24,983 bases of DNA from a virus. The DNA lies in IMG/VR virus record IMGVR_UViG_3300015360_000186, positions 1-24,983 of that record; one strand, 5' to 3'. Shown here piece after piece: positions 1 to 24,983 of this stretch. Within the stretch, counting starts at the first letter, position 1. The number at the start of each line of letters is the position of its first letter. Both the position numbers and the translations under genes were made by a program. Under the pieces are notes generated by a model that saw nothing but the letters and a program-made list of their open reading frames with translations, was not told where the DNA came from and did no database searches.

Positions 1-737
1 GATAGGTACTCTAGGACTAGATCAGACCCAGATATACTGCCTTGGAACTCTATACCAGAGGCTCCTGGGGATGTACTAGCTACGGATACATCTACAAGTG
101 TTCCATCCGTAGACATGAATATTTGACCTGTTTCATGTGTAGCTCCTCTAGTAATAGAGAAGTTTATAATCATGTGCTCACTGCCAGCATAGGGTACAGA
201 GAAGATCTCTCCGACAAAATTATTAATGATATCAAGAGCTTGGATAGAACCAAGTTCCCAGAAGCTAGAGCCGTTAAATAGTCTAACAACATTATTAACC
301 TTCCACTCAGTACCATCAAACTGTGCTGTCTGATTGGCAAAGAAGGCTCCTTTTGTAGCTGTGACCATATCTCCGTCTGTTGGGTCTTCGTCTAATGTAG
401 AGCTAGGGCCAAAGAAGTCTTGTGCACTCCAGGCTGCGTTAACTCCAATACCAGAGAGTAGATAAACCCTGTTATTTCCACTATTTAGGTTAGTGAACAA
501 GATTAGATCCCCGTTTGAGGCTACTACATCGTCAATAGTGATAGATGGTCCTGAGGGTAGTGATGTTGATACTGGGTCAATGAAAGTTACTTTAATGTGG
601 CGAGGTGGGTTGTTTTCTAAGAATAGAAGACGTGCATCGCTATCATTTACAGCAGCTTCAATTTCAGTCCAGATCGTCTCTATTTGTGTGAAATATGGAT
701 CTAGATTCTCAGGAATTCTTGTAATTATTAGGCTCAT
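1..737 (-). CDS. Tail fibre-like / baseplate-distal protein, partial (C-terminus off the left edge)
   Basis: The reverse frame is open from an ATG at 737 to the window edge (245 codons, no stop). It starts MSLIITRIPENLDPYF. A GGGGGA site lies about 8 nt upstream and the ATG overlaps the stop of the J-like gene (TAATG), indicating translational coupling. The middle resembles modules common in phage fibre and structural proteins: DDVVASNGDLILFTN, then a Trp-containing FDGTEWKVNNVVRLFNG stretch. The visible end (DGTLVDVSVASTSPGASGIE) resembles beta-rich fibre domains. Position directly after the baseplate J gene is where fibre genes usually lie. I infer a fibre or fibre-attachment protein; the receptor-binding part, if any, is not visible. 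Confidence 0.72.
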   Translation of the reverse strand, partial: MSLIITRIPENLDPYFTQIETIWTEIEAAVNDSDARLLFLENNPPRHIKVTFIDPVSTSLPSGPSITIDDVVASNGDLILFTNLNSGNNRVYLLSGIGVNAAWSAQDFFGPSSTLDEDPTDGDMVTATKGAFFANQTAQFDGTEWKVNNVVRLFNGSSFWELGSIQALDIINNFVGEIFSVPYAGSEHMIINFSITRGATHETGQIFMSTDGTLVDVSVASTSPGASGIEFQGSISGSDLVLEYL

Positions 738-3430
738 TAAGAAGTTCCCCCGATAGCATTAATCACTAGATCTGTGTCTGTGTCGATCTGCAGAATCTGA
801 ATATCTGAAGGAATAAGGTCTCCAACTAATTCAGATACATTAAAATGGAACTCATCTCCATTTTCGCCGTTAGAATCTATTACGGTAGAAAACACAATCG
901 TCTCAGCGTCATCTTCATAGTTAAAAGATACTTCAAACTCATCATCATGTGATGGAGCATTTGGAAGTCCATCCACGGTAAAGTGTCCTGTGGCCGAGAC
1001 GTAATCATTTACTCTTCTGACAATGCCTTCATTACTTCCCGTCAGGAATTTAACGACAGATCCATTGTAGTAATCATCTCCCTTTCCAATGAGTAGAGAC
1101 GACTCAAACTCCGTACTTGTTGCGGGGAATAAAGATGTGTTCACCGCAGAATCAGATCCCATTATATACTTTGGAGAACATATATAAGCGTCTGAAGCTG
1201 AAGGTTCTGTAGTGATAGAGCTAGGTCCACCAAGAGTAAATATACCCGATACTCCAGTGTAGTCTAGAACGGTAGTCACTTCGTACTGTCCATTTCCATC
1301 AGTTAAGATATATTGGTATCCATTAAACGCATCATCAGCGTATACGCCAGCTAGAGCTGAATCGGTCACACTATTGAGTGTTCCACTTCCGTAGGTATAG
1401 GAAGTAATCGTACCCGTAGTTGCTGGTGCTGTGTTAGCCAGTGGGTTAGTGCCAAACTGATTTGTTTCAGGTCGGTAGATTCTATACTCATCTCCCGCAG
1501 AAGTCACTGCGCCTAGTCCACTTGCTACTGAGACCGAGCTTCCAGTATTGGCTACAATATTAAAGACATCGCTTCTTAATGTATTTGGATTTAATTTATA
1601 GCCGACTAATCTCTCTACTACTTCATAAGCACCATCAGCTGGAGTTCCAGCGGTTACAGTAATTGTGTCTTGTGTGTTAGACGCAATGAGGAAGAACGTT
1701 CCTGCAGAATCAATAAGAGTCTGTCCAGCAAATACGTTAGGCTGGAAATATTGATTAGAGTCTTGTAAGAAAGTTGACCCTGCATCTGTACTTGTGCCAG
1801 ACTCTAATGTTAGATCTAGGTTTGGGTCGGTAATAGTTGTGTCATTTAATGTAGCAGAGTTTCCGATAATACCTTTTTGTAAAATATAGTCAGTATCTGT
1901 GTGCATGAAAATCTTATACTCATAGTTCCTGGCTGGATTTCTGATGACAGTCCCTCTGGAACTCAGGTGTGCGGTACCGGCATTTGAATCAAGTAATTCA
2001 TACATAGCTGGCTTTAGAGTAAATTTGTTTATCTTAACTTTACTTATTCCTGCAACACTCTCTAGATATTCATTGAAGTCGAATAAGTCGCTGTCAAACC
2101 CAGTTGATTTTAATAAAACTGGGCGGCCAAATTCCATATTATCAAAGTCAAATAAATCGTTTACGGCCGATGTAATAGCTATGACAACTTCAGACTGTTT
2201 GGATGTATCTTCAACAAAAACTTTCAGGGAGATTTGAACTGGCTGGTATATTGGGTCTTTAGCAAAAATAGTTGTCTTTGCCATTTTTTTATCGTCAAAG
2301 AAAGCAACTACGGAATTCTTGAGCGTGGTGCTTGGGAATCCGCCACCGTCTGGGGCAACATGTATTACTACATCAAAGTTACCTTCACCGGCTCTTGCCA
2401 GAGCCTTTGCTACTCCTGTAACAGTCTTAGCTAGAATAGAGTGGTCCATCAAAGACACGGCTCTATTTAGAGCGGATAGGCTGGCTGGAGCATTAATCTT
2501 TATTTCTTCTAGAGACTCTTTAGGGCCACCCCCAGTCATTGGGGAATCATTAGATACAGCCAGTACTCCAGTTCTAGAACTGATTAGTTGTATTACTGTG
2601 TCAATATTTAAGTTGCCATTATTTTGTAGAGCTCTCTGATCTTCATCAGCAAGTACTCTATAGGTAGCGTGGATCACTGATCCATCTCCTGGTATTACTC
2701 CAAACTCGCCATTTCCAAATGTAATGACGGTCTCATCAGAATCGCTGGTCCTACTCGTATAAACTTTGTCTGTAGATTGGGCTGTAGATAGTGTTGTGGT
2801 AACGTCATATAAGTCACCGTCAACTGTAACAACTAATTCACTATTGTCATTAATCTCGGCTATAGTCCTAGATAAAATTACATTCTTTCTACTCAGTGTG
2901 TATGATTGGAAAGGCGAGCCGCTGCCTATAGCTAGAGGGCCAATTCCAGAAGTAGTTTCTGCAATTGTTTCACCTTCTGTTACATCGAGCGTAATATTCG
3001 CTGTATTAAATAAAATGCTCTCAGAGTCGTTAGTTTCAAAAATAATTCCGTTGCCGTTACTTACTTGAAATCCTTTGAGTAGTGGAGTTCCATAATCAAA
3101 CGTGCCCACATCTAGAGATAATGTTATTTCTCCTGTGGCTGGGCTAGGATTTCCAGGAAAATAATTAATCAGTGCCGCTAATTCAATGGCAGCTTGGCGA
3201 TCTTTTGTAGTAGACAGAAAATTATCTTGTGTTTGTCTGTCAATATAAAAGTGTAAGTTATCTCCAAGATACGCTACAATTTCTGCGATTGCAGCAGCGA
3301 AAGAACCTTCGTTATAGTCACTCCAAATGTCCGAGAAGTTAGCTTGACTATACTCGAAAAACGCTTGTCTTAGCCCTTGGAAATCACGAGTGCTTAAGTT
3401 TACTTCAGAATTTAATATTAAATTTGACAT
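737..3430 (-). CDS. Baseplate wedge protein, J / T4 gp6-like
   Basis: An 897-residue protein. The N-terminal ~95 residues have the pattern of gp6/J-like wedge proteins in myoviruses: FQGLRQAFFEYSQANF, DYNEGSFAAAIAEIVAYLGD, FYIDRQTQDNFL, then AAIELAALINYFPG. The central part (ALNRAVSLMDHSILAKTVTG to about residue 480) fits the Baseplate_J core. The last ~120 residues contain DDYYNGSVVKFLTGSNEGIVRRVNDY, a beta module repeated in many phage structural proteins. J proteins form the wedges that surround the hub and transmit the contraction signal to the sheath. It lies 2 nt after the gp25-like gene, the standard order. It is longer than P2 J (about 300 aa) and nearer T4 gp6 in size. Confidence 0.9.
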   Translation of the reverse strand: MSNLILNSEVNLSTRDFQGLRQAFFEYSQANFSDIWSDYNEGSFAAAIAEIVAYLGDNLHFYIDRQTQDNFLSTTKDRQAAIELAALINYFPGNPSPATGEITLSLDVGTFDYGTPLLKGFQVSNGNGIIFETNDSESILFNTANITLDVTEGETIAETTSGIGPLAIGSGSPFQSYTLSRKNVILSRTIAEINDNSELVVTVDGDLYDVTTTLSTAQSTDKVYTSRTSDSDETVITFGNGEFGVIPGDGSVIHATYRVLADEDQRALQNNGNLNIDTVIQLISSRTGVLAVSNDSPMTGGGPKESLEEIKINAPASLSALNRAVSLMDHSILAKTVTGVAKALARAGEGNFDVVIHVAPDGGGFPSTTLKNSVVAFFDDKKMAKTTIFAKDPIYQPVQISLKVFVEDTSKQSEVVIAITSAVNDLFDFDNMEFGRPVLLKSTGFDSDLFDFNEYLESVAGISKVKINKFTLKPAMYELLDSNAGTAHLSSRGTVIRNPARNYEYKIFMHTDTDYILQKGIIGNSATLNDTTITDPNLDLTLESGTSTDAGSTFLQDSNQYFQPNVFAGQTLIDSAGTFFLIASNTQDTITVTAGTPADGAYEVVERLVGYKLNPNTLRSDVFNIVANTGSSVSVASGLGAVTSAGDEYRIYRPETNQFGTNPLANTAPATTGTITSYTYGSGTLNSVTDSALAGVYADDAFNGYQYILTDGNGQYEVTTVLDYTGVSGIFTLGGPSSITTEPSASDAYICSPKYIMGSDSAVNTSLFPATSTEFESSLLIGKGDDYYNGSVVKFLTGSNEGIVRRVNDYVSATGHFTVDGLPNAPSHDDEFEVSFNYEDDAETIVFSTVIDSNGENGDEFHFNVSELVGDLIPSDIQILQIDTDTDLVINAIGGTS

Positions 3431-3432
3431 AA

Positions 3433-3828
3433 TTAATCCAGGTAAAATGGGAAAACAAGATTTTGTTCTACGTTTTCCGGTATTACAGTAAAGCTGATTT
3501 TAATAAAAACAACTCGTTCATTATTTGGTGACGATTCCACGTTTACTTGTAGGTCTGAAATTCTCGGTTCCCCAGTTTCCACAGTCCTGAGGATCTCTTG
3601 GGCTAGTAATGACCTTAGCTGGGGGCTATTAGATTCATGTTTAAAGTCCATCAATCTAGACCCAATAAGTGGGCTATGGACTCTTTCGCCGATCCTAGTA
3701 TGTAGCAAGAAGATTATAGAGTCTCTGACCTGGTCAGTATTGTCTCTGTTTTTAGAGAAATCGCCGTCTTTTCCAACACTTAGCGGGTATTTGAGACCTC
3801 TCCCTAAAAAAGCTTTGCTTATTGACAT
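3433..3828 (-). CDS. Baseplate wedge protein, gp25 / GpW family
   Basis: A 131-residue protein from the preferred start, matching the gp25-like family: RDSIIFLLHTRIGERVHSPLIGSRL, then RSLLAQEILRTVETGEPRI and a beta-strand C-terminus. The family links baseplate wedges to the first sheath ring. An upstream in-frame ATG at 3840 would add MESI, but that ATG has no clear ribosome site, whereas GGAG lies 6 nt before the ATG at 3828 (MSISKAF). I therefore prefer 3828. Its neighbours are the spike-lysozyme upstream and the J-like wedge downstream, the usual T4/P2 arrangement. Confidence 0.9.
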   Translation of the reverse strand: MSISKAFLGRGLKYPLSVGKDGDFSKNRDNTDQVRDSIIFLLHTRIGERVHSPLIGSRLMDFKHESNSPQLRSLLAQEILRTVETGEPRISDLQVNVESSPNNERVVFIKISFTVIPENVEQNLVFPFYLD

Positions 3829-14567: not shown

Positions 14568-15173
14568 TTAATCTTTTACCACTACCTCTATGTTGACCTT
14601 GCTGAGGTCTATATTACTCTGATCTAGGGTTGGAAGACTTGTTAGTGAACTATAGTCAAACAAGTAGCTTTCAATCCGATAAGTATAGATGCGATGAAAG
14701 AATACATCTTCCACAATATCCGCATTTATACTTGGCTCAGGTCTCTGAACCGCTAAACGGTATTTTCCATCGTTTAGTATAAACTGGTAACCAAAAGAGG
14801 GTATCCTTCTATTGACCTCTGTTACCAACTCTATTGTATCATCAACACTCTCTGCATACAAATGAACACTGAAGGAGGCAAAGTATGCATCAGGCTGTTT
14901 TATCCTAACCGAATCTGCGTAAGTTCCATCAGATAACTGGTTAAAGGCATAGTCTATTGTACCAGAAAATTGCCGGTCGTCAGCACGTTCTAGGTCTAAA
15001 AATTCAAGATATATACATGGGTAGGTCTCTTTAAGCTCTGAACTTTCAGGGCTTTCCCACTGAACTGGGACGTGTCGATCTCTAATGACGATATCTGACA
15101 GCCTATTCTGTAGTAATTTACTTACAGTTTTAGGGCCTAGGTCTGGAAATGGGCTTGAGTCCATACCATTCAT
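14568..15173 (-). CDS. Probable tail terminator / tail completion protein
   Basis: A 201-residue protein without an assured family match. The order (connector, HK97 gp10-like, this gene, then sheath) is that of tail terminator or neck proteins such as lambda gpU and T4 gp15. Features: an alpha N-terminus (LGPKTVSKLLQNRLSDIVI), then strands alternating with a helix (ASFSVHLYAESVDDTIELVTEVNRRI), as in small terminator domains. The start at 15173 is preceded by GGAT and lies 3 nt after the stop of the previous gene; an in-frame ATG three codons in is an alternative. The role is inferred from position. Confidence 0.7.
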   Translation of the reverse strand: MNGMDSSPFPDLGPKTVSKLLQNRLSDIVIRDRHVPVQWESPESSELKETYPCIYLEFLDLERADDRQFSGTIDYAFNQLSDGTYADSVRIKQPDAYFASFSVHLYAESVDDTIELVTEVNRRIPSFGYQFILNDGKYRLAVQRPEPSINADIVEDVFFHRIYTYRIESYLFDYSSLTSLPTLDQSNIDLSKVNIEVVVKD

Positions 15174-15698: not shown

Positions 15699-16123
15699 TA
15701 ACGGTCCCCTAAGTTGCCGAAATCCTTCATCTTAGTTCGTTGTCTGGAAAAGCGGCTCGTTTGGGAATTGAGGTTTTTTCTGGATGATTTTTTCTTCTCA
15801 ATTTCAGCAAGTCCATTACGGGAATCTGAAAGAAATCTTTCCAGTAAATCTGGAGAAACTCTTTTGGAAGAGCCTCTTAGTACTAAATATATTGAGTAGT
15901 CTGCTTCGATAATGCGTTTGTCGTTATCTAAAGCGAAAGTTTGAAGCTCAAAAGCTTCTAGTTGATTGTTGATCCATAAATGAGATTGGTTTCTCATTTC
16001 GTTGAGGTAGTGCTCTACATTTTGATCGGACCAATTGGAATCGAGATAGTTTTTGATATCTGGAAAACGGAGTCTTAGGTCAGAATTTTTGCAGTATGTA
16101 ATTGTGGTCTTCCGCTGTAACAC
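15698..16123 (-). CDS. Probable head-tail connector protein
   Basis: A 141-residue protein. Its opening (YCKNSDLRLRFPDIKNYLDS) resembles the N-terminal part of gp6-like or DUF1320-type head-tail adaptors, helical proteins that bind under the portal. A basic tail follows (EKKKSSRKNLN, RFSRQRTK). The start is GTG with a GAGGGG site 6 nt upstream. It is the second gene after the capsid gene and overlaps the HK97 gp10-like gene, so the connector role is mainly contextual. Confidence 0.65.
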   Translation of the reverse strand: MLQRKTTITYCKNSDLRLRFPDIKNYLDSNWSDQNVEHYLNEMRNQSHLWINNQLEAFELQTFALDNDKRIIEADYSIYLVLRGSSKRVSPDLLERFLSDSRNGLAEIEKKKSSRKNLNSQTSRFSRQRTKMKDFGNLGDR

Positions 16124-18418: not shown

Positions 18419-20068
18419 ATGTCAGACAATGAAAAGGAAATTCCCCCTTCTTCTCCAGAGCCGGATACTCCAGACGAGAATTTCCTAGGGGACCCTAATG
18501 CCTATTATCATTCACTTTTATCCAAACCTCTGCCAAAAGAAGTCTCAGAATACTTGATTAAGCGACATAAGCTTAATACTGAAGAAAAGTATATAAACTA
18601 CCTACAAAGTGCTGATTTTATTGAAGAAATCTCTGAATTTGACTACCTATTATTCTTTGAGCAAGTACTACATTTCACTGTAAAGGACTTCCATAGGAAG
18701 TTCGCAGCACAGGTATACGCCGACCGGGCCATAACCCTGGCACCTCGGGGGGTTGGCAAGTCCCATTTCTTTAGCGTTTGTTTAAGTATCTGGCTAGCTT
18801 TTTACCAAAAGTCCAAGTTTACCATGATCTTATCTGAAACAGAGGATCAGGCAAAACGGATTCTAGAAGAAATAAAGCAGATTATCGAAGATAATGAGGC
18901 CCTAAAGGACGCTCTAATGATCGAGAAGACCTCTAAGGACAGCGTTTGGAACAAGAACGAGGTCAAGTTAAAGAATGATTGCATTATCAAGGTAAAGAGC
19001 TTTACAGCCAAGTTAAGAGGGAATCACCCAAACTCTATCATTCTGGACGATGTTCTATCAAACCAGAACTCTTTGACTAAACAGCAACGGGAAGACCTGT
19101 TTAACTACTATGCCCAGACTATTAGGCCGATGGCTACCAAGAATGCCAGGATCTTATTCGTTGGGACAGCTCAGCATAAAGATGATTTACTACATAAACT
19201 CGGAGCTTCCAGCTCCTTTAAGTTCTTGAAATTAAAGGCATATGATGAAGAAACAGCAGAATCCATATGGCCTGAACAGTTACCTGAGCATGAACTTGAG
19301 GACTACAGGAAGACCTACGGGATCGTATCCTTTGAGAAAGAGTTCCAGAATAACCCTATGTCCGATAAGCTCAGCCTATTTCCCCTTTACATCCTAGAGA
19401 AGTGCCTAGATGAGCGCGCTTCCTACGTTAAAGACTACTATGGAAACCAGAAGGTCTTCTTGGGAGCTGACTTTAGTATGCCTGGGACTAATCAGGGAGA
19501 CTACACGGTCATATCTACCGCTCGTATGGACGGCAATGGCACCCTCACGCTGTTAAACTATGATCGGTACAGAGATAGCCCAGAAAACCAAGATATGTTC
19601 GTAGACAAGCAAATAGAGACGATCTCACGGTTCTGTAGACAGTTCAACGTAACTCTTGGCATGTTGGAAAGTAACTCCTTTCAAAAGATCTACTCAGACT
19701 TCTTCAAAAAGAAGACTAACCTACCTTTAAAGTCTAACGTGGTAACTAGGTCTGGGAAGAATAGCCTACAGTCTGGTATCCCTGCTTTACGTATTCTTAT
19801 GGAAAATGGGAAGATCAAATTCCCTTACAAGACTGCAGAAGATAGATTAAAGACTGAGGAAATCATTAGAGAATTCAATGGGTTAGTTATGACTGAGGAT
19901 GGTAGAATCAGTAACCAAACCTCGCATGATGATATACCGATGAGTTGGTTACATTTACTCGCAGCTACCCATAATGTGGCTCAAATGACCACTTTTGTCC
20001 CAAGCGACAAACTACTTAAGAGTAGTCGATCTCATAATCTAATAGGTCGAAGAAAGAAACGGTTCTAG
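18419..20068 (+). CDS. terL: Terminase large subunit (packaging ATPase/nuclease)
   Basis: A 549-residue TerL. Walker A is APRGVGKS (108-115), Walker B SIILDD (206-211), and the coupling motif FVGTAQH (247-253). The C-terminal nuclease has LGADFS (Asp351), MLESNS (Glu417) and SHDDIPM (Asp504/505), the three acidic groups of the RNase H-like fold. It drives ATP-dependent DNA translocation through the portal and cuts the concatemer. It is transcribed rightward, away from the capsid genes. The C-terminus is basic (GRRKKRF). The stop TAG is immediately followed by TTGACA. Confidence 0.95.
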   Translation: MSDNEKEIPPSSPEPDTPDENFLGDPNAYYHSLLSKPLPKEVSEYLIKRHKLNTEEKYINYLQSADFIEEISEFDYLLFFEQVLHFTVKDFHRKFAAQVYADRAITLAPRGVGKSHFFSVCLSIWLAFYQKSKFTMILSETEDQAKRILEEIKQIIEDNEALKDALMIEKTSKDSVWNKNEVKLKNDCIIKVKSFTAKLRGNHPNSIILDDVLSNQNSLTKQQREDLFNYYAQTIRPMATKNARILFVGTAQHKDDLLHKLGASSSFKFLKLKAYDEETAESIWPEQLPEHELEDYRKTYGIVSFEKEFQNNPMSDKLSLFPLYILEKCLDERASYVKDYYGNQKVFLGADFSMPGTNQGDYTVISTARMDGNGTLTLLNYDRYRDSPENQDMFVDKQIETISRFCRQFNVTLGMLESNSFQKIYSDFFKKKTNLPLKSNVVTRSGKNSLQSGIPALRILMENGKIKFPYKTAEDRLKTEEIIREFNGLVMTEDGRISNQTSHDDIPMSWLHLLAATHNVAQMTTFVPSDKLLKSSRSHNLIGRRKKRF

Positions 20069-20097
20069 TTGACATTATCAATAATAACAGCTAAGTA
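20069..20097 (+). promoter_or_regulatory. Candidate promoter of the structured RNA
   Basis: A perfect TTGACA (20069-20074) begins at the base after the terL stop codon. At 17 bp spacing the hexamer is TAAGTA (20092-20097), and at 18 bp AAGTAT; both are weak -10s. The exact -35 directly abutting the coding end is suggestive, but the -10 is poor, so the RNA could also be read from the terL promoter and be processed. Confidence 0.4.
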
Positions 20098-20099
20098 TG

Positions 20100-20573
20100 A
20101 GATACACCCTAGATAAAAGGTCTAGGGGACATAACCTGGTTAAGCCAAGAGAATCGAACCTATACGAAAACGTGCTTGGTGGCTTCAGGATAGGGTAACC
20201 TTAGGAATAAATTAGAAAGGATTCTTAAGGCTATGACAGTACCCAGTAAAGTGGGCTTAAAGCAACTACTAGTATATTAGATATATAGATATACTAAAAA
20301 ACATATACAATAAAGAAAAATAAAATAGAATAATAACAAAATATAATAAAGAAAAAGATATATACATACAACTAAGAATACAACCTTTAGTATTAAGAAA
20401 ATACGTAGAAATCTCTGACGGATTATAAGAATAAAAACATAATACAAAAGCATATAACCTGTTTAGCCCTGTAAAGGGCTTTAAATGGGAAAGAATCAGG
20501 TGTAAGAACAATAGTTCAACACTAAAGCTATGACTCTTTATGGAAGCCCCACTAAAAATGGGGCTTCTTTTTT
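20100..20573 (+). ncRNA. Candidate large structured non-coding RNA
   Basis: About 470 nt with no credible plus-strand ORF but many local helices: CCCTAGA/TCTAGGG hairpin (20107-20127); AGCC/GGCT with flanking GGTTA/TAACC; a 10-bp hairpin 20199-20208 with 20221-20230 (one G-U); CCCA/TGGG hairpin; an AT-rich, weakly structured middle (~20270-20450); then ACCTG/CAGGT enclosing AGCCCT-GTAA-AGGGCT (a GNRA-type tetraloop hairpin) and GTGT/ACAC enclosing GAAC-AATA-GTTC. It ends in an intrinsic terminator (20543-20573). GCTATGAC occurs near both structured ends. No known class (group I/II intron, tmRNA, tRNA) is identified. It could be a new or known large phage RNA (ROOL- or GOLLD-like); this is a guess. 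Confidence 0.6.
20543..20573 (+). terminator. Intrinsic terminator at the end of the structured RNA
   Basis: GAAGCCCC (20543-20550) pairs perfectly with GGGGCTTC (20560-20567) around a 9-nt loop, followed by six T (20568-20573). The stem can extend by one G-T pair. It ends plus-strand transcription of terL and the structured RNA; no T-run exists on the minus side. Confidence 0.93.
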
Positions 20574-20749
20574 GCCTCATTACCCATCCTACTGAACTCC
20601 CCCCTACACTTTTTATGGTAAAAACACCCTCCTATTTGACACTTTTTACGGCTGACCCCTAAAAATACCCGTTTTTTACCTCCTTTTTTGAGAAAACCAG
20701 TTTTTAGACCCCCCTTGTAACCCCTTGATATTATTCAAGTGAGGCAGCT
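20574..20749. other. Gene-free pyrimidine-rich tract with short repeats
   Basis: About 175 nt without a credible ORF. The plus strand is rich in C- and T-runs (CCCCCC, TTTTTT) with recurring units: ACACTTTTTATGG (20606-20618) and ACACTTTTTACGG (20639-20651), 33 nt apart; TTTTTA-TGG-TAAAAA hairpin near 20611; GGTAAAAAC near 20618 can pair with GTTTTTTACC near 20671. ACCTCCTTT near 20678 matches the 16S anti-Shine-Dalgarno. A packaging (pac) or terminase binding site is possible because it lies between terL and terS-like genes, but nothing proves it. Confidence 0.5.
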
Positions 20750-20777
20750 TTTCTACATAGCGATTATATAACTTTTT
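20750..20777 (+). repeat. 28-bp direct repeat, copy 1
   Basis: Identical over 28 bp to 21971-21998 (starts TTTCTACATAGCGATTATAT, ends AACTTTTT). Similarity continues downstream: a run to GGG-TCAAAAAATGA here against GGAGCTAAAAATGAGC at copy 2, so the repeat reaches the ribosome-site and start-codon region. Here the ATG at 20791 opens only a 19-codon frame (20791-20850) and overlaps an intrinsic terminator. The unit is promoter-like (TATATAA) or a translation leader; copy 1 looks like a truncated or regulatory version. Confidence 0.85.
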
Positions 20778-20780
20778 CCA

Positions 20781-20804
20781 GGGTCAAAAAATGACCCATT
20801 TTTT
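20781..20804 (+). terminator. Intrinsic terminator just downstream of repeat copy 1
   Basis: GGGTCA (20781-20786) pairs with TGACCC (20792-20797) around five A, followed by A and six T (20799-20804). The stem is short (6 bp) but G/C-anchored and the T-run is good. It would end any RNA begun at repeat copy 1 after about 30 nt, or block read-through into the terS-like gene. Confidence 0.7.
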
Positions 20805-20815
20805 AGCCTATTTCA

Positions 20816-20923
20816 GGCAACTCCGTTGCCGAGAAGACGAAGCACTCTAAACCCACTTCCAGTGAGTGTGAAGTGCATCATTGATTCACTGCACACAGAG
20901 ACACATGATTTTCTTTATTTTTG
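20816..20923. other. Gene-free structured stretch before the terS-like promoter
   Basis: Holds a GGCAAC-TCC-GTTGCC hairpin (20816-20830), a CACTTC/GAAGTG hairpin (20854-20859 with 20870-20875) and a competing GTGCA/TGCAC pair (20873-20877 with 20890-20894). No T-runs follow the first, so they are not terminators. They may be part of a small RNA, a pac/TerS binding site, or an operator for the promoter that follows. I see no gene. Confidence 0.45.
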
Positions 20924-20932
20924 TGGTATACT
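20924..20932 (+). promoter_or_regulatory. Extended -10 promoter for the terS-like operon
   Basis: TGG-TATACT (20924-20932), the same form as the terL promoter. The start would be near 20939, giving a ~40-nt leader with AAAGGAG at 20966-20972. No standard -35 is visible upstream. Confidence 0.6.
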
Positions 20933-20979
20933 AAAAATTGTTATAGTTACTAGTAGTTAGATGTGAAAGGAGAATTGTC

Positions 20980-21681
20980 ATTCTTACCCTAGATGCCATT
21001 ATAGACCGTATCCCGCGCACTACGCGTGTTTCTACATTTCCTAGACCAGTTCTTACTGAGATGTATGAAAGGAAGTTTAACGGCGAATCCACCGAGCAAA
21101 TCGCTTTGTGGTTACAAGATTCTCATAACCTTAATATCTCATCTAGACAACTCTGGCGTATCTTCAAGAGCACTATACCCGATTTCGTTATGGAAGCTGT
21201 CAAACAGCACAAGAACATTTTAACGGAAGACGAGAAGACTTTAGATCAGATTAGAGAATTAGAAAAAGTTGCTGAGATGCAACTAGAACGTATTAGAGCC
21301 CAGAGATGGGATGAGATGGATCAAGAAGGTATTGCCAGAACTAATCTTCAGACTGGTGAAGTGGAATACTCAGCCACCAATAAAAACTTAAACGACTCCC
21401 TACGCACATATAACGGCCTTATAAAGAGTATTCTCGAAATGAAGTCCGCTGTTGGTCTTGTAAGAAAACAGGCTGAAGTGATTGAAGTAAAGACTTCAAT
21501 GAATACTATTACCCGCCAGGCATTGACTGGAATGATTCAGAATGCACTTAGGACGGACCCATCACTTAATAAGTTTATACAAGAAGGTACAGAAGAGGCC
21601 GTAGAGGTCGAATACACTGAGGTGGAAAGTAATGAAATCGATATGGAAAGCCCTGAAAGGGCTGAAATTGAAAATAACTAG
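20980..21681 (+). CDS. Terminase small subunit-like DNA-binding protein, apparent ATT start
   Basis: A 233-residue protein from the preferred start, or 206 from ATG 21061. Around 21061-21180 is a helix-turn-helix (MYERKFNGESTEQIALWLQD, then LNISSRQLWRIFKS), followed by a coiled coil (DEKTLDQIRELEKVAEMQLERIR) and an acidic C-terminus (EEAVEVEYTEVESNEIDMES), the build of TerS proteins that recognise DNA and recruit TerL. No canonical start has a ribosome site: AAAGGAG lies 7 nt before ATT 20980, the frame is open from there, and the added 27 residues (LTLDAIIDRIPRTTRVSTFP) read as normal protein. The ATG at 21061 has no Shine-Dalgarno. Separation of terS from terL by ~900 nt is unusual. Confidence 0.7.
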   Translation: MLTLDAIIDRIPRTTRVSTFPRPVLTEMYERKFNGESTEQIALWLQDSHNLNISSRQLWRIFKSTIPDFVMEAVKQHKNILTEDEKTLDQIRELEKVAEMQLERIRAQRWDEMDQEGIARTNLQTGEVEYSATNKNLNDSLRTYNGLIKSILEMKSAVGLVRKQAEVIEVKTSMNTITRQALTGMIQNALRTDPSLNKFIQEGTEEAVEVEYTEVESNEIDMESPERAEIENN

Positions 21682-21886
21682 TAAATTCGAAGGGTTCTCC
21701 TTTTCAGAGTATCTCTTTAGAATGACGAGTCGTAAGCTTGGAGTCATTATGACCTTTGCAGGTGCTGCCTATTACCTTAATGAGAAGGGCAGACTAAGCC
21801 AAGCAATGGCAGATGTACTAGTTGGACTGGCTCTAGCTTACTGTGGTGCGAACATTTTAGGCAAGAAGATGAGCAAAGATAAATAA
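21632..21886 (+). CDS. Small membrane protein, possible holin
   Basis: An 84-residue protein that overlaps the end of the terS-like gene by 50 nt. After a basic N-terminus (LKGLKLKITSKFEG) come two hydrophobic stretches: KLGVIMTFAGAAYYLN and ADVLVGLALAYCGANILG, with a Lys-rich C-terminus. Two membrane segments and a charged tail fit a class II holin, but the family is not recognised. The ribosome site before ATG 21632 is weak (GTGGAAAGT). A 24-codon frame follows in TAATG overlap. Lysis role is inference. Confidence 0.6.
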   Translation: MKSIWKALKGLKLKITSKFEGFSFSEYLFRMTSRKLGVIMTFAGAAYYLNEKGRLSQAMADVLVGLALAYCGANILGKKMSKDK

Positions 21887-21960
21887 TGCCTAAAATTGAC
21901 CTCAAAAAACGGGAAATAGTAAAAAACAGTGAATTTTTTAAGTCCAATGATTTCAGGTAG
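21886..21960 (+). CDS. Possible 24-residue peptide
   Basis: ATG overlaps the stop of the preceding gene (TAATG) and gives 24 codons ending TAG: MPKIDLKKREIVKNSEFFKS and four more residues. It is Lys-rich with no recognised motif. The TAATG coupling seen throughout this phage supports translation; nothing else does. Confidence 0.3.
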   Translation: MPKIDLKKREIVKNSEFFKSNDFR

Positions 21961-21970
21961 TTAATATAGG

Positions 21971-21998
21971 TTTCTACATAGCGATTATATAACTTTTT
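21971..21998 (+). repeat. 28-bp direct repeat, copy 2 (upstream of small gene)
   Basis: Identical to 20750-20777. Copy 2 ends directly before TAGGAG and the ATG at 22011, so its transcript would have almost no leader apart from the ribosome site. The TATATAA core suggests a promoter of a class different from the extended -10 group, or a translation-leader element. Confidence 0.85.
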
Positions 21999-22010
21999 TA
22001 GGAGCTAAAA

Positions 22011-22214
22011 ATGAGCATGATGAAAGTACCCACAAACAAGCAAATCGCTGCCGCTGCTAAGCGTAAAGTTAAGCCGGGAGACCTACTAGATAAGGCTACC
22101 CATTACCAAGCCAATTGCGGCCTACCTATCAGAAAGATGAACCTAAAGACTGGGGAAAACAAAGTGTTTGAATACTTCCAACAAAGACCCTTGAAGCCGA
22201 AGGGCAAGAAGTAA
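22011..22214 (+). CDS. Small basic protein of unknown function
   Basis: A 67-residue, strongly basic protein (KQIAAAAKRKVKPGDLLDKA, RPLKPKGKK end) with a Cys at residue 36. AGGAG precedes the ATG by ~7 nt and the 28-bp repeat lies just upstream. TAATG overlap with the next gene. The basic charge suggests nucleic acid or acidic-protein binding; I do not recognise it. Confidence 0.65.
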   Translation: MSMMKVPTNKQIAAAAKRKVKPGDLLDKATHYQANCGLPIRKMNLKTGENKVFEYFQQRPLKPKGKK

Positions 22215-22702
22215 TGAAAACCCCTAGTTACATAAGCATGGTTCTAGAGAGCCTGAAGAGTCTCAATAGCGACGTTAAACTCCTCACTGACCGTATTAGC
22301 AACATAAATGTGGACGTAGCAACTGTTAAAGTTGAAATGTCTCGTAACAATGAGCATATGGGACAATATAACCAACAGCTAGAGATTCACATACAAGGCG
22401 TTGAGTTAGCCCATAAAAGATCGGACCTCCAAGAACAGAAAATTATTGGCATGGAATCCGATATAGCTTTAGTACAAAAAGAATTGACAACCAAATTAGA
22501 TTTGGTGTATAGTCATATTGAAGAAGAACGGCAGGAACGAGAAGTTCGCAGAAAAATTCAAGTTGAAGCTCAGTTTAAAAAAGAAGCACTTTATAGAAAT
22601 TTAAAGGTTTACACTTTAATTCTTGGTGCACCTTTAGCTGGATATGGGTTACTTAAGTTTCTTGCTCAAATTTTTGAAAAATTCGCATTTCTATTTCACT
22701 AA
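22214..22702 (+). CDS. Coiled-coil protein with C-terminal membrane segment
   Basis: A 162-residue protein. Residues ~10-125 are predicted coiled coil (VLESLKSLNSDVKLLTDRIS, MESDIALVQKELTTKL, EEERQEREVRRKIQ). Residues ~131-152 are hydrophobic (VYTLILGAPLAGYGLLKFLAQI). It has the build of XhlA-like or spanin-related membrane-anchored helical proteins. Coupled by TAATG to the gene before. It sits among other small membrane proteins, so a lysis or membrane role is plausible but unproven. Confidence 0.68.
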   Translation: MKTPSYISMVLESLKSLNSDVKLLTDRISNINVDVATVKVEMSRNNEHMGQYNQQLEIHIQGVELAHKRSDLQEQKIIGMESDIALVQKELTTKLDLVYSHIEEERQEREVRRKIQVEAQFKKEALYRNLKVYTLILGAPLAGYGLLKFLAQIFEKFAFLFH

Positions 22703-22707
22703 TCATT

Positions 22708-22920
22708 ATGGACTTATTGAAAAAAATCTGGTATTATTTAGCAATCGTAGGCCTAGTTATCTTAGGCGTTGCTATTTACTCAGCATTTTTTAAGTCCAGT
22801 GAACTCAAAGACTTACTTAAACAAAGGCCTATCAGAAAGCCAGGTAGTCTAAAACTTCCAGAAGCCCCTTCAATTATCGACTACGTCGATTTATACCGTA
22901 AAAAATTAAAGAGATTATAA
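22708..22920 (+). CDS. Small single-membrane-segment protein
   Basis: A 70-residue protein with an N-terminal membrane segment (KIWYYLAIVGLVILGVAIYSAF) and a basic soluble tail (KQRPIRKPGSLKLPEAPSII, RKKLKRL). No ribosome site is clear. It has the topology of a small inner-membrane protein, conceivably a spanin-like or holin-associated partner; not recognised. Confidence 0.55.
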   Translation: MDLLKKIWYYLAIVGLVILGVAIYSAFFKSSELKDLLKQRPIRKPGSLKLPEAPSIIDYVDLYRKKLKRL

Positions 22921-22935
22921 AAAGGAGTATACTCA

Positions 22936-23772
22936 GTGTCTAAAATTACTCCTACTACAGGTACTGAAGGACCTTTAGCCCAAGGTGTGCAGAAACTGAA
23001 CTTGCAGTATGGCAGGTCCGTTTCCGGTGTAAACCCATCTACTAACATTTCTCTTGGAGCAGACTATAAGTTTAATATTACAGTTAATGGGGACGGGCCA
23101 CATCTAGTATCCATTCTTGGCTACCAAGTTTTGAAAGACCCTAAAGCCATAGCTCTGGCGCTGGCTACTGCAATAAATGGAGTAGAGGCAACTGACCCCA
23201 CACTAAACTTAGCGTTTAGACAGTTTACATGTGATTGGCTTACAGACCATTATGAGTTAAGATCTGGACTTTATGGGGATAACTCCTCAGTTGTAGTCAC
23301 GGATGCTGGCTCTGAAAATATAGCAGTAGCTCTTAAGATTGGCACAGCCAATGGTGGGACTGAAGGTTCATTCTACCCAAAACAGTCTGCTGTAGCTTCC
23401 CTTGTTCAAATTGTTGAAAATCCAAACCCAACTCGGGTCACTCTTGTTGGGATAGACGAAGTTAACTTGGACGGCGCACAACTTGATGTTGACCTTACTC
23501 ATTTAGACAACTCCCCTAACGCTGGAGATGTTGCAGACTCTGTTAGAATAGGAGATGGAGTTACGGAATTAAGTCTAGCAACAGATGGTTCAATAAAAAC
23601 TATCCAGCTATTTAAAAAACCATACGACTCTATAACTGCCTCTTATCCCACATCGACTCAAGAAGTATATTCCTCTCGTGTAGGTGGAATTGCGGGAACA
23701 ATTCAGGAAACCGTTACTATAAATTATACTGATTCTACCAAGAACTTTTTATTGGACCTCTCTAGGACTTAA
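22936..23772 (+). CDS. Phage structural protein of unknown role
   Basis: A 278-residue protein that starts with GTG, 8 nt after AAAGGAG. The middle has strand-rich flagellin/structural-type phrases (NISLGADYKFNITVNGDGPH, ATAINGVEATDP, SVVVTDAGSENIAVALKIGTANGG) and the end ETVTINYTDSTKNFLLDLS, a pattern found in phage virion proteins. It starts the rightward group of virion/fibre-type genes. Whether head or tail cannot be told. Confidence 0.65.
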   Translation: MSKITPTTGTEGPLAQGVQKLNLQYGRSVSGVNPSTNISLGADYKFNITVNGDGPHLVSILGYQVLKDPKAIALALATAINGVEATDPTLNLAFRQFTCDWLTDHYELRSGLYGDNSSVVVTDAGSENIAVALKIGTANGGTEGSFYPKQSAVASLVQIVENPNPTRVTLVGIDEVNLDGAQLDVDLTHLDNSPNAGDVADSVRIGDGVTELSLATDGSIKTIQLFKKPYDSITASYPTSTQEVYSSRVGGIAGTIQETVTINYTDSTKNFLLDLSRT

Positions 23773-23773
23773 T

Positions 23774-23983
23774 ATGCCATTTCGATTTAACCCCACAACT
23801 GGACAGCTAGATTTAGTAGGAAGTTCTTCCTCCGCTACAAGTTCTGATAATATTCTTATTAAACGAACTATTATCCAAGATTTTACTGTACCAAATGACT
23901 ATACAATGTTAGGAAGAGATACTATAATTGACTCTGGAATAACTCTTACTATCGATATTGGTGGAGAACTATTAGTTTTATAA
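23774..23983 (+). CDS. Small fibre-associated protein
   Basis: A 69-residue protein. Its start, MPFRFNPTTGQLDLVG, is a pattern seen at the N-terminus of small phage proteins near fibre genes; the end (TIIDSGITLTIDIGGELLVL) is a short beta-helix-like strand array. It lies 1 nt after the preceding stop, with AGGA before the ATG, and 9 nt before the fibre gene. Confidence 0.62.
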   Translation: MPFRFNPTTGQLDLVGSSSSATSSDNILIKRTIIQDFTVPNDYTMLGRDTIIDSGITLTIDIGGELLVL

Positions 23984-23992
23984 GGAATATTT

Positions 23993-24983
23993 ATGTCAAA
24001 AATAAACTTAAAAGAAGGAACAGCCCCTACTACTCCAGCAAGTGGGGAAGTGTCGGTCTATGTAAAGACAGATAAACAATTATACATAAAAGATGATACA
24101 GGAACTGAGTCTGGTGTTACGTCTGACAATAAAGTTAGAATCAGTGCAACAGACACTACTAATGATTATCTAAATGGAAAAATTCCCTCTACTGCAACAA
24201 TTACTACAGCAATTTTAAATCCTGGTGCTAATGAACAGATAGAATTGTCCGTTGATGAGTCTGGATTAACTTTAGATAATTTAGGTGGGACACTCAGCGT
24301 GTCCAAAGGTGGTACTGGACAAACAACTTTGTTGCTTGCTTTTGATAATCTTTCTCCTTTAACAACCAAAGGAGATTTGTTAACAACAGATGCTTCTAAT
24401 AATATTAGATTCCCAGTAGGAACCAATGGTCAAGTATTATCTGCAAATAGCGCACAAGCTAGTGGTCTTGAGTGGATAACTGGAGCAGGAGCTGTTACTT
24501 CTGTAGCATTGAGTGCTCCTGGACTTTTATTTTCAGTAACAGGGTCTCCAGTAACAACTACTGGTACTTTAACTCTTGATTTAATTACTCAAACTGCCAA
24601 TAGAATTTTAGCTGGCCCAACAACTGGAATTCCCGCTAATCCAACATTCAGATCATTAGTTGCTGCAGATTTGCCTCTTATTTCTTTGACTACTGGAGTA
24701 TCTGGAACACTTCCAATTGCAAATGGTGGAACAAATGCTACAACGGCTGATGCTGCTTTTGATAATCTTTCTCCTTTAACAACCAAAGGAGATGTACTAG
24801 TTTATTCAACATTAAATACAAGACTCCCAGTAGGAACCAATGGTCAAGTATTATCTGCAAATAGCGCACAAGCTAGTGGTCTTGAGTGGATAACTGCATC
24901 AGGAGCTGGATTTGATCCAACAACTACTATTACATTATATGACGATTTTATAGGAAATGATCAATCAGCAGCGGCTGCATCTA
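23993..24983 (+). CDS. Tail fibre-like protein, partial (runs off right edge)
   Basis: Open from ATG 23993 to the edge (330 codons, no stop); AAGGA lies 6 nt upstream. The protein has fibre-type low-complexity beta repeats: LGGTLSVSKGGTGQTT, then LSPLTTKGDLLTTD, VGTNGQVLSANSAQASGLEW, which recur about 138 residues later (LSPLTTKGDVLVYS, VGTNGQVLSANSAQASGLEW). Such GGTG/NGQVL units are typical of receptor-binding tail fibres and side appendages. The C-terminal, binding part lies beyond the window. Its gene is on the opposite strand to the fibre-like gene at the left end. Confidence 0.75.
   Translation, partial: MSKINLKEGTAPTTPASGEVSVYVKTDKQLYIKDDTGTESGVTSDNKVRISATDTTNDYLNGKIPSTATITTAILNPGANEQIELSVDESGLTLDNLGGTLSVSKGGTGQTTLLLAFDNLSPLTTKGDLLTTDASNNIRFPVGTNGQVLSANSAQASGLEWITGAGAVTSVALSAPGLLFSVTGSPVTTTGTLTLDLITQTANRILAGPTTGIPANPTFRSLVAADLPLISLTTGVSGTLPIANGGTNATTADAAFDNLSPLTTKGDVLVYSTLNTRLPVGTNGQVLSANSAQASGLEWITASGAGFDPTTTITLYDDFIGNDQSAAAAS
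24338..24376 (+). repeat. 39-bp repeat in fibre gene, copy 1
   Basis: Identical to 24755-24793. Encodes AFDNLSPLTTKGD. Confidence 0.9.
24411..24482 (+). repeat. 72-bp repeat in fibre gene, copy 1
   Basis: Matches 24825-24896 over 72 bp. Encodes PVGTNGQVLSANSAQASG and the following LEWIT. Confidence 0.9.
24755..24793 (+). repeat. 39-bp repeat in fibre gene, copy 2
   Basis: Second copy of 24338-24376, 417 bp away. Confidence 0.9.
24825..24896 (+). repeat. 72-bp repeat in fibre gene, copy 2
   Basis: Second copy of 24411-24482, 414 bp away. Together with the 39-bp pair it shows recent duplication within the fibre; the intervening DNA has diverged. Confidence 0.9.

Follow-up and report, generated by a model that had tools for sequence, protein, structure and literature searches.

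Phage-borne RNAs and packaging elements provide the closest described parallels to the stretch considered here, a candidate non-coding RNA directly behind the terL gene of a phage. As set out in part of PMC12286853, ROOL (RF03087) is a phage-borne RNA of approximately 500–660 nt in which structured parts stand beside a disordered linker (positions 414–464 of a 659-nt RNA), GOLLD (RF02032) is a phage-borne RNA of two regions and a variable linker, and RNAs of these types often lie near tRNAs. The pRNA of phi29 (RF00044), a known RNA working in phage packaging, is 174 nt long and is called unique to these phages in an excerpt of PMC11476376. PMC8081044 describes MalH, a characterised bacterial RNA that is a remnant of an mRNA 3' end, and passages of PMC4737164 describe SPP1-like pac sites, DNA elements at the small-terminase gene where the small terminase selects intrinsically bent DNA. 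A sequence-only reading of the locus had raised ROOL, GOLLD and a packaging-linked RNA as possible kinds for the candidate, though it settled on no class. The candidate resembles ROOL and GOLLD in its predicted layout and ROOL also in its size, a likeness that is an analogy only, and it shares with pRNA only the idea of a packaging-linked phage RNA.

The window, by which we mean the whole stretch of DNA that was analysed, is a 24,983-base virus record from a contractile-tailed phage. Its minus strand encodes tail sheath, tail tube, baseplate and major head proteins, and its plus strand carries terL, the product of which also matched terminase large subunit and DNA maturase B sequences in PDB (both E approximately 1e-6). 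Three aspartates, D351, D504 and D505, which we take to be a putative nuclease site, are invariant among four aligned TerLs, and their retention here would set the phage apart from phi29. Two other IMG/VR contigs are nearly identical to the window. One of them, G002 (64,847 bases), matches window positions 1–20068 at 99.945%; its end thus falls at the terL stop, and it covers none of the candidate. The first 1000 bases of the other, G001 (45,568 bases), equal positions 19297–20296 at 100% and include 228 nt of the candidate, all identical, before the match ends within the A-rich linker. Positions 21061–24983 gave only 15- to 18-base matches to these two contigs. Two contigs of the same population thus break at 20068 and at 20296, a pattern that may stem from strain variation, from assembly problems or from the end of a genome.

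We tentatively read the candidate as a lineage-specific, terminated non-coding transcript of approximately 470–505 nt that forms the terL 3' UTR and is putatively functional. Three parts of this reading were shown computationally: the sequence of the terminator, the lack of a coding signal and an excess of hairpins. The candidate belongs to a non-coding gap of approximately 910 nt, measured from terL to where the next gene plausibly starts (992 nt if its first ATG is used); among the 27 genes used, the next-largest gaps are 229 and 127 nt, and the terL gap is by far the longest in a fragment that is otherwise densely packed. The earlier statement that the stretch holds no credible open reading frame on the plus strand was borne out, with a longest stop-to-stop frame of 36 codons and 12, 19 and 16 stops in the three plus frames. 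None of these frames carried a codon signal (z 0.71, 0.03 and −0.93), compared with a mean z of 2.08 (sd 1.15) for 77 pieces of 33 codons from phage genes, the same genes having trained the score. Two open frames were considered and rejected: the 33-codon frame at 20097 as a gene (codon z 0.23, no evident ribosome-binding site, no family in Pfam or PHROG and, among phages, a single match at E 7 attributable to chance), and a 103-codon minus-strand frame as a coding remnant (codon z −0.16, nothing in Pfam and one weak PHROG match at E 0.047). The plus strand is A-rich as far as the terminator and pyrimidine-rich behind it. The long gap, the absence of codon signal, this change in composition and the identical 228 nt in G001 all favour a non-coding transcript.

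Table 1 Features of the terL–downstream region, with positions in the window
Feature	Position	Strand	Basis
terL, large terminase subunit, 549 aa	18419–20068	+	phrog_38 terminase large subunit, E 2.3e-67
Candidate non-coding RNA / terL 3' UTR	20069–20573	+	No ORF or codon signal; fold z below shuffles
Predicted 5' hairpin domain	20105–20262	+	Fold of 20087–20264, z −2.33, 3/200 shuffles; identical in G001
A-rich linker	20266–20450	+	A 105, T 45, C 18, G 17 in 185 nt
Predicted 3' hairpin domain with GUAA-loop hairpin 20465–20480	20458–20539	+	Fold of 20450–20541
Intrinsic terminator (10-pair stem 20542–20568 plus T run)	20542–20573	+	Scan; 6/10 pairs GC
Stretch rich in pyrimidines, A/T tracts in helical phase (candidate bent DNA)	20590–20705		10.5-bp phasing score 5.67
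First copy of exact 28-nt repeat, promoter- or operator-like	20750–20777	+	25-nt core exactly twice; shuffles mean 0.00
Gene called terS-like by position	20980–21681	+	Open frame 20947–21681; ends non-coding gap

The intrinsic terminator that had been placed at the end of the stretch was recovered by the scan as a ten-pair stem followed by T, and its strength also argues for a terminated transcript. At the other end, a TTGACA is indeed present directly after the terL stop (20069–20074, terL ending at 20068), but it did not hold up as a promoter: the best hexamer at a legal spacing matches at three of six positions, and the site is absent from the promoter scan. The window contains 16 copies of TTGACA. 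Weak promoter-like sites (9/12) were found within the linker at 20304 and 20415, the scan giving 15 sites in total compared with 9.1 expected. Read-through from terL is a likelier source of a transcript than a promoter at the 5' end of the stretch, and the absence of an evident promoter there, with only two weak sites inside the linker, weighs against the candidate as a functional non-coding transcript.

The predicted fold agrees with the architecture described in the sequence-only reading. Stems of the 5' domain were predicted at 20107–20127, 20135–20189 (nested), 20195–20234 and 20242–20255, the third of which contains the 10-bp hairpin claimed at 20199–20230. The AT-rich middle separates two structured parts as described, and the linker region (20269–20468) folded at −14.1 kcal/mol with a z of −1.24. 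In the 3' domain, the AGCCCT-GTAA-AGGGCT hairpin and the enclosed stems near the 3' end were both predicted. The 472-nt fold without the terminator consisted of local hairpins, with no helix between the 5' and 3' domains, and in the 512-nt fold 5 nt paired with the tail behind the terminator. Copies of GCTATGAC do occur at both structured ends (20230–20237 and 20527–20534), but this is near chance, with two shared 8-mers compared with 0.82 expected; across the whole stretch, repeated 8-mers numbered 17 compared with 9.0 in shuffled sequences. A two-copy motif at 20131 and 20454 was not counted, 41 of 300 shuffles having scored as high.

Folding energies were compared with those of shuffled sequences. 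The candidate gave a z of −3.90 over 512 nt including the terminator and of −3.66 over 472 nt without it (0/100 shuffles in each case), and shuffling within three segments, which removes the effect of uneven composition, left a z of −3.1 (0/100). For the 3' part (20450–20541) the z was −3.85 (0/200), with limits that were picked after the fold had been seen. The minus strand of the candidate folded almost as well as the plus strand (z −3.39), and as single-stranded DNA the candidate reached −5.37 (0/100). Among 49 background plus-strand windows of 472 nt (mean z −0.97, sd 1.29), three scored −3 or lower; those starting at 20521 (−4.29) and 20021 (−3.52) overlap the gap, and that starting at 16021 (−3.41) lies over other genes. 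The candidate scored lower than all 47 windows not touching the gap, which again favours an RNA. Plus-strand windows of 200 nt had a mean z of −0.57 (sd 1.33), with five of 124 below −3; the minimum, −5.37, came from the window at 14669, where a minus-strand gene lies. The background plus strand is antisense to genes up to 18291. Among 361 windows of 92 nt spanning the whole window, four scored −3.85 or lower, one of which (20494–20585) overlaps the 3' domain and holds the terminator.

As a yardstick, a genuine ROOL RNA (one copy, from plasmid pMP118) gave a z of −1.09, with 16 of 100 shuffles folding as well. Folding energy does not track function, given that this known RNA scores so weakly, and it is a weak witness in either direction because the antisense strand, the 5' part and the true ROOL score −3.39, −2.33 and −1.09, respectively. 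In view of the background windows, the antisense and single-stranded DNA folds and the ROOL yardstick, the hairpin excess, though real, is modest and falls short of identifying an RNA. Structure beyond chance is thus partly borne out, in that the whole stretch beats its shuffles, whereas the 5' part alone, the antisense strand, the background window over a minus-strand gene and the ROOL control leave it a slim edge, and these same comparisons tell against a non-coding RNA.

On a plainer account, the stretch is an ordinary 3' UTR followed by spacer, with only the terminator mattering and the other hairpins and the A-rich filler being products of chance or drift. We regard this account as possible, if somewhat doubtful. 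It is consistent with a 5' domain that is unremarkable against the phage's own background, with shared 8-mers near chance and with the lack of a homologue in the searches made, and it sits well with the closest other phage among the matches listed, in which the next ORF follows terL after 12 nt. It accommodates less readily the 3' domain, which without the terminator still beats all 200 shuffles, and the result of segment-wise shuffling; nor does it account for approximately 910 nt being kept here when, among the gaps used, just two others in this phage exceed 125 nt.

Known RNA families were sought with Rfam models, and none reached its gathering score in the window or in contig G002. At E ≤ 10 the region gave 10 and 11 sub-threshold matches, most of which owed their score to the terminator; the remainder, among them Phe leader, aspC and CopA, were short and were rejected as chance matches. 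The ROOL model (gathering score, 99.1 bits) matched nothing in the window at E ≤ 10, and it found the L. salivarius pMP118 copy at 130.4 bits as a positive control. Matches at E ≤ 10 were likewise absent for GOLLD (gathering score, 150 bits), for which the control genomes gave none over the cut-off either, for the group I intron (RF00028), for which the built-in control exceeded the cut-off in two of 14 genomes, and for phi29 pRNA, for which the control also lacked a match. Unlike a gene interrupted by an intron, terL has its own stop ahead of the stretch. Neither tRNA nor tmRNA was found in the window or in G002, and no reverse transcriptase of retron or diversity-generating type was found in G002.

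These searches bear most directly on the possibility that the candidate is a large ornate RNA of the ROOL or GOLLD kind, with two folded domains around a disordered linker and possibly multimeric. In its favour is the predicted arrangement of structured parts and unstructured linker in a phage, as in the portion of PMC12286853 cited above. Unlike ROOL, however, the candidate lacks a model match, nearby tRNAs and a helix joining its 5' and 3' domains, and its linker contains up to 70% A in 60 nt compared with at most 38% in one ROOL control copy (read on the complement); many GOLLD members also differ from it in exceeding 800 nt. An octameric RNA cage is a further character by which ROOL is recognised. 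With a ROOL model that does detect the pMP118 copy, no tRNA in either the window or G002 and a fold of local hairpins, membership in these families is very improbable. An RNA as such is plausible, and a large ornate RNA of the sort raised in the sequence-only reading is hypothetical.

Relatives of the stretch were sought in several ways. No homologue was found in the searches made beyond the two contigs of the same population, so that no covarying pairs could be counted, which tells against a functional RNA. A blastn search of phages at E ≤ 10 returned 30 records, all with less than 80% of the query covered, and the best 20 of these 30 all had an E of 6; plasmids gave nothing at E ≤ 0.1. In a DNA search of eight phage records, three had matches at E ≤ 1, of 19–31 nt and all within query positions 244–384, a segment made up of the linker and its margin. 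Viral contigs contained an exact 24-base pattern once (same population) and an exact 26-base pattern not at all. A gapped helix pattern detected 43 stretches in viral contigs, comprising G001 and 42 others, the latter being rejected as relatives because their flanks, judged by eye, are unlike the window. Two identical copies of the 5' domain served to build a covariance model; across the window plus 46 of 166 loci, only the copy in the window itself exceeded 9.5 bits. The model gave no match in 10 records, one of which, G002, lacks the region; this search had no positive control.

In searches based on proteins, TerL relatives were found at eight loci, with 80 kept of at least 240 and eight in a further search; none was found in genome contigs, and the 424 phage records with TerL matches were all below 60% identity, with none covering 80%. 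The head protein matched no phage record and, among viral contigs, only the same population, and no relatives of the next gene were found. Peptide-pattern searches may miss relatives, and absence judged by TerL holds among the matches listed. The closest other phage by TerL among these matches, the one with the 12-nt interval behind terL, is IMGVR 3300042049_000003 (38–40% identity); its TerL (L034, 2260–4254) appears to have its ATP-binding region interrupted by an intein-like insert. Among the open-licence PMC papers listed, no title or opening abstract lines described such an RNA behind terL. In the searches made, the region is an orphan.

Downstream of the terminator, the phased A/T tracts attained their score of 5.67 in windows starting at 20586 and 20591, which nominally rank second in the window after 3401–3411. 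For the window as a whole, A-tract phasing at 10.5 bp peaks within 3356–3520, around the start of the baseplate gene (737–3430). The tracts at 20590–20705, behind the terminator and ahead of the next gene, may possibly mark a packaging site. This possibility leads to a third account, in which the region would be a cis-acting packaging or replication locus with its palindromes and phased A tracts serving as protein-binding and DNA-bending sites. Its position between terL and a gene read as terS-like, the second-best phasing of the window, the choice of intrinsically bent DNA at pac by SPP1-like small terminases (passages of PMC4737164) and the low z of the candidate as single-stranded DNA all point that way, as do the contig breaks at 20068 and 20296, which could occur near a genome end. 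The putative site, however, lies outside 20069–20573, downstream of the candidate and its terminator, and sequence of low complexity or high variability may be all that made the contigs stop there; the virus records list no terminal repeats. The neighbouring gene, moreover, gave no convincing family match in Pfam or PHROG, and its product was not significantly similar (E 1.7) to that of the gene ahead of terL in IMGVR 3300042049_000003, a possible TerS. The name terS-like rests on position. Overall we consider a DNA locus unlikely.

The next gene itself shows codon signal both ahead of its first ATG at 21061 (20980–21060, z 2.0) and behind it (21061–21678, z 5.27). An AGGAG at 20968–20972 has no in-frame ATG, GTG or TTG close behind it, and an ATT at 20980 is well spaced. 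Upstream of this gene lies the first copy of the 28-nt repeat, and the second copy (21971–21998) precedes another plus-strand gene, directly before a Shine-Dalgarno sequence and ATG. The 25-nt core was found twice in the window within three mismatches and not in G002 within eight, and the repeat is probably a promoter or operator. Directly behind its first copy is a second terminator-like hairpin (20781–20803, six pairs and then T-rich), which may be attenuator-like in the leader of the next gene; the leader (20774–20980) had a fold z of −1.95. Farther along, a direct repeat of approximately 160 nt (24337–24494 and 24754–24908) is 87% identical between copies, and the gene that holds it, running off the end of the window, reads as possibly tail-fibre-like.

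To return to the terminated terL transcript, the reading we tentatively favour, we infer both its transcription and its release or stabilisation as a separate RNA. Read-through of terL would make a transcript ending at the terminator, in which the 5' and 3' hairpin domains would be tethered by the A-rich, mostly unpaired linker. The folded domains might then shield the terL 3' end from decay, with the product persisting as a stable phage RNA, and such an RNA could act as RNA on gene expression at the packaging stage, and not by forming a cage or part of the motor. The proposed origin from an mRNA 3' end is that described in PMC8081044 for MalH, which is a characterised RNA, whereas the candidate is predicted from sequence alone. 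A bolder proposal, that the stretch represents a new class of large phage RNA behind terL in which a long single-stranded tether rich in A joins two folded domains, strikes us as quite unlikely. Such an RNA would be produced along with the packaging ATPase, would have its role in packaging or in late expression and would be unrelated in sequence to ROOL, GOLLD and pRNA.

If no RNA is made, the locus serves as a caution: a folding z of approximately −3.7 in a single sequence does not identify a large RNA, given that a true ROOL scores −1.09 and that −5.37 occurs in a 200-nt plus-strand window lying opposite a minus-strand gene of this phage. If the transcript does prove to be a stable RNA, the phage would possess an unclassified RNA of approximately 500 nt tied by its position to the packaging ATPase.
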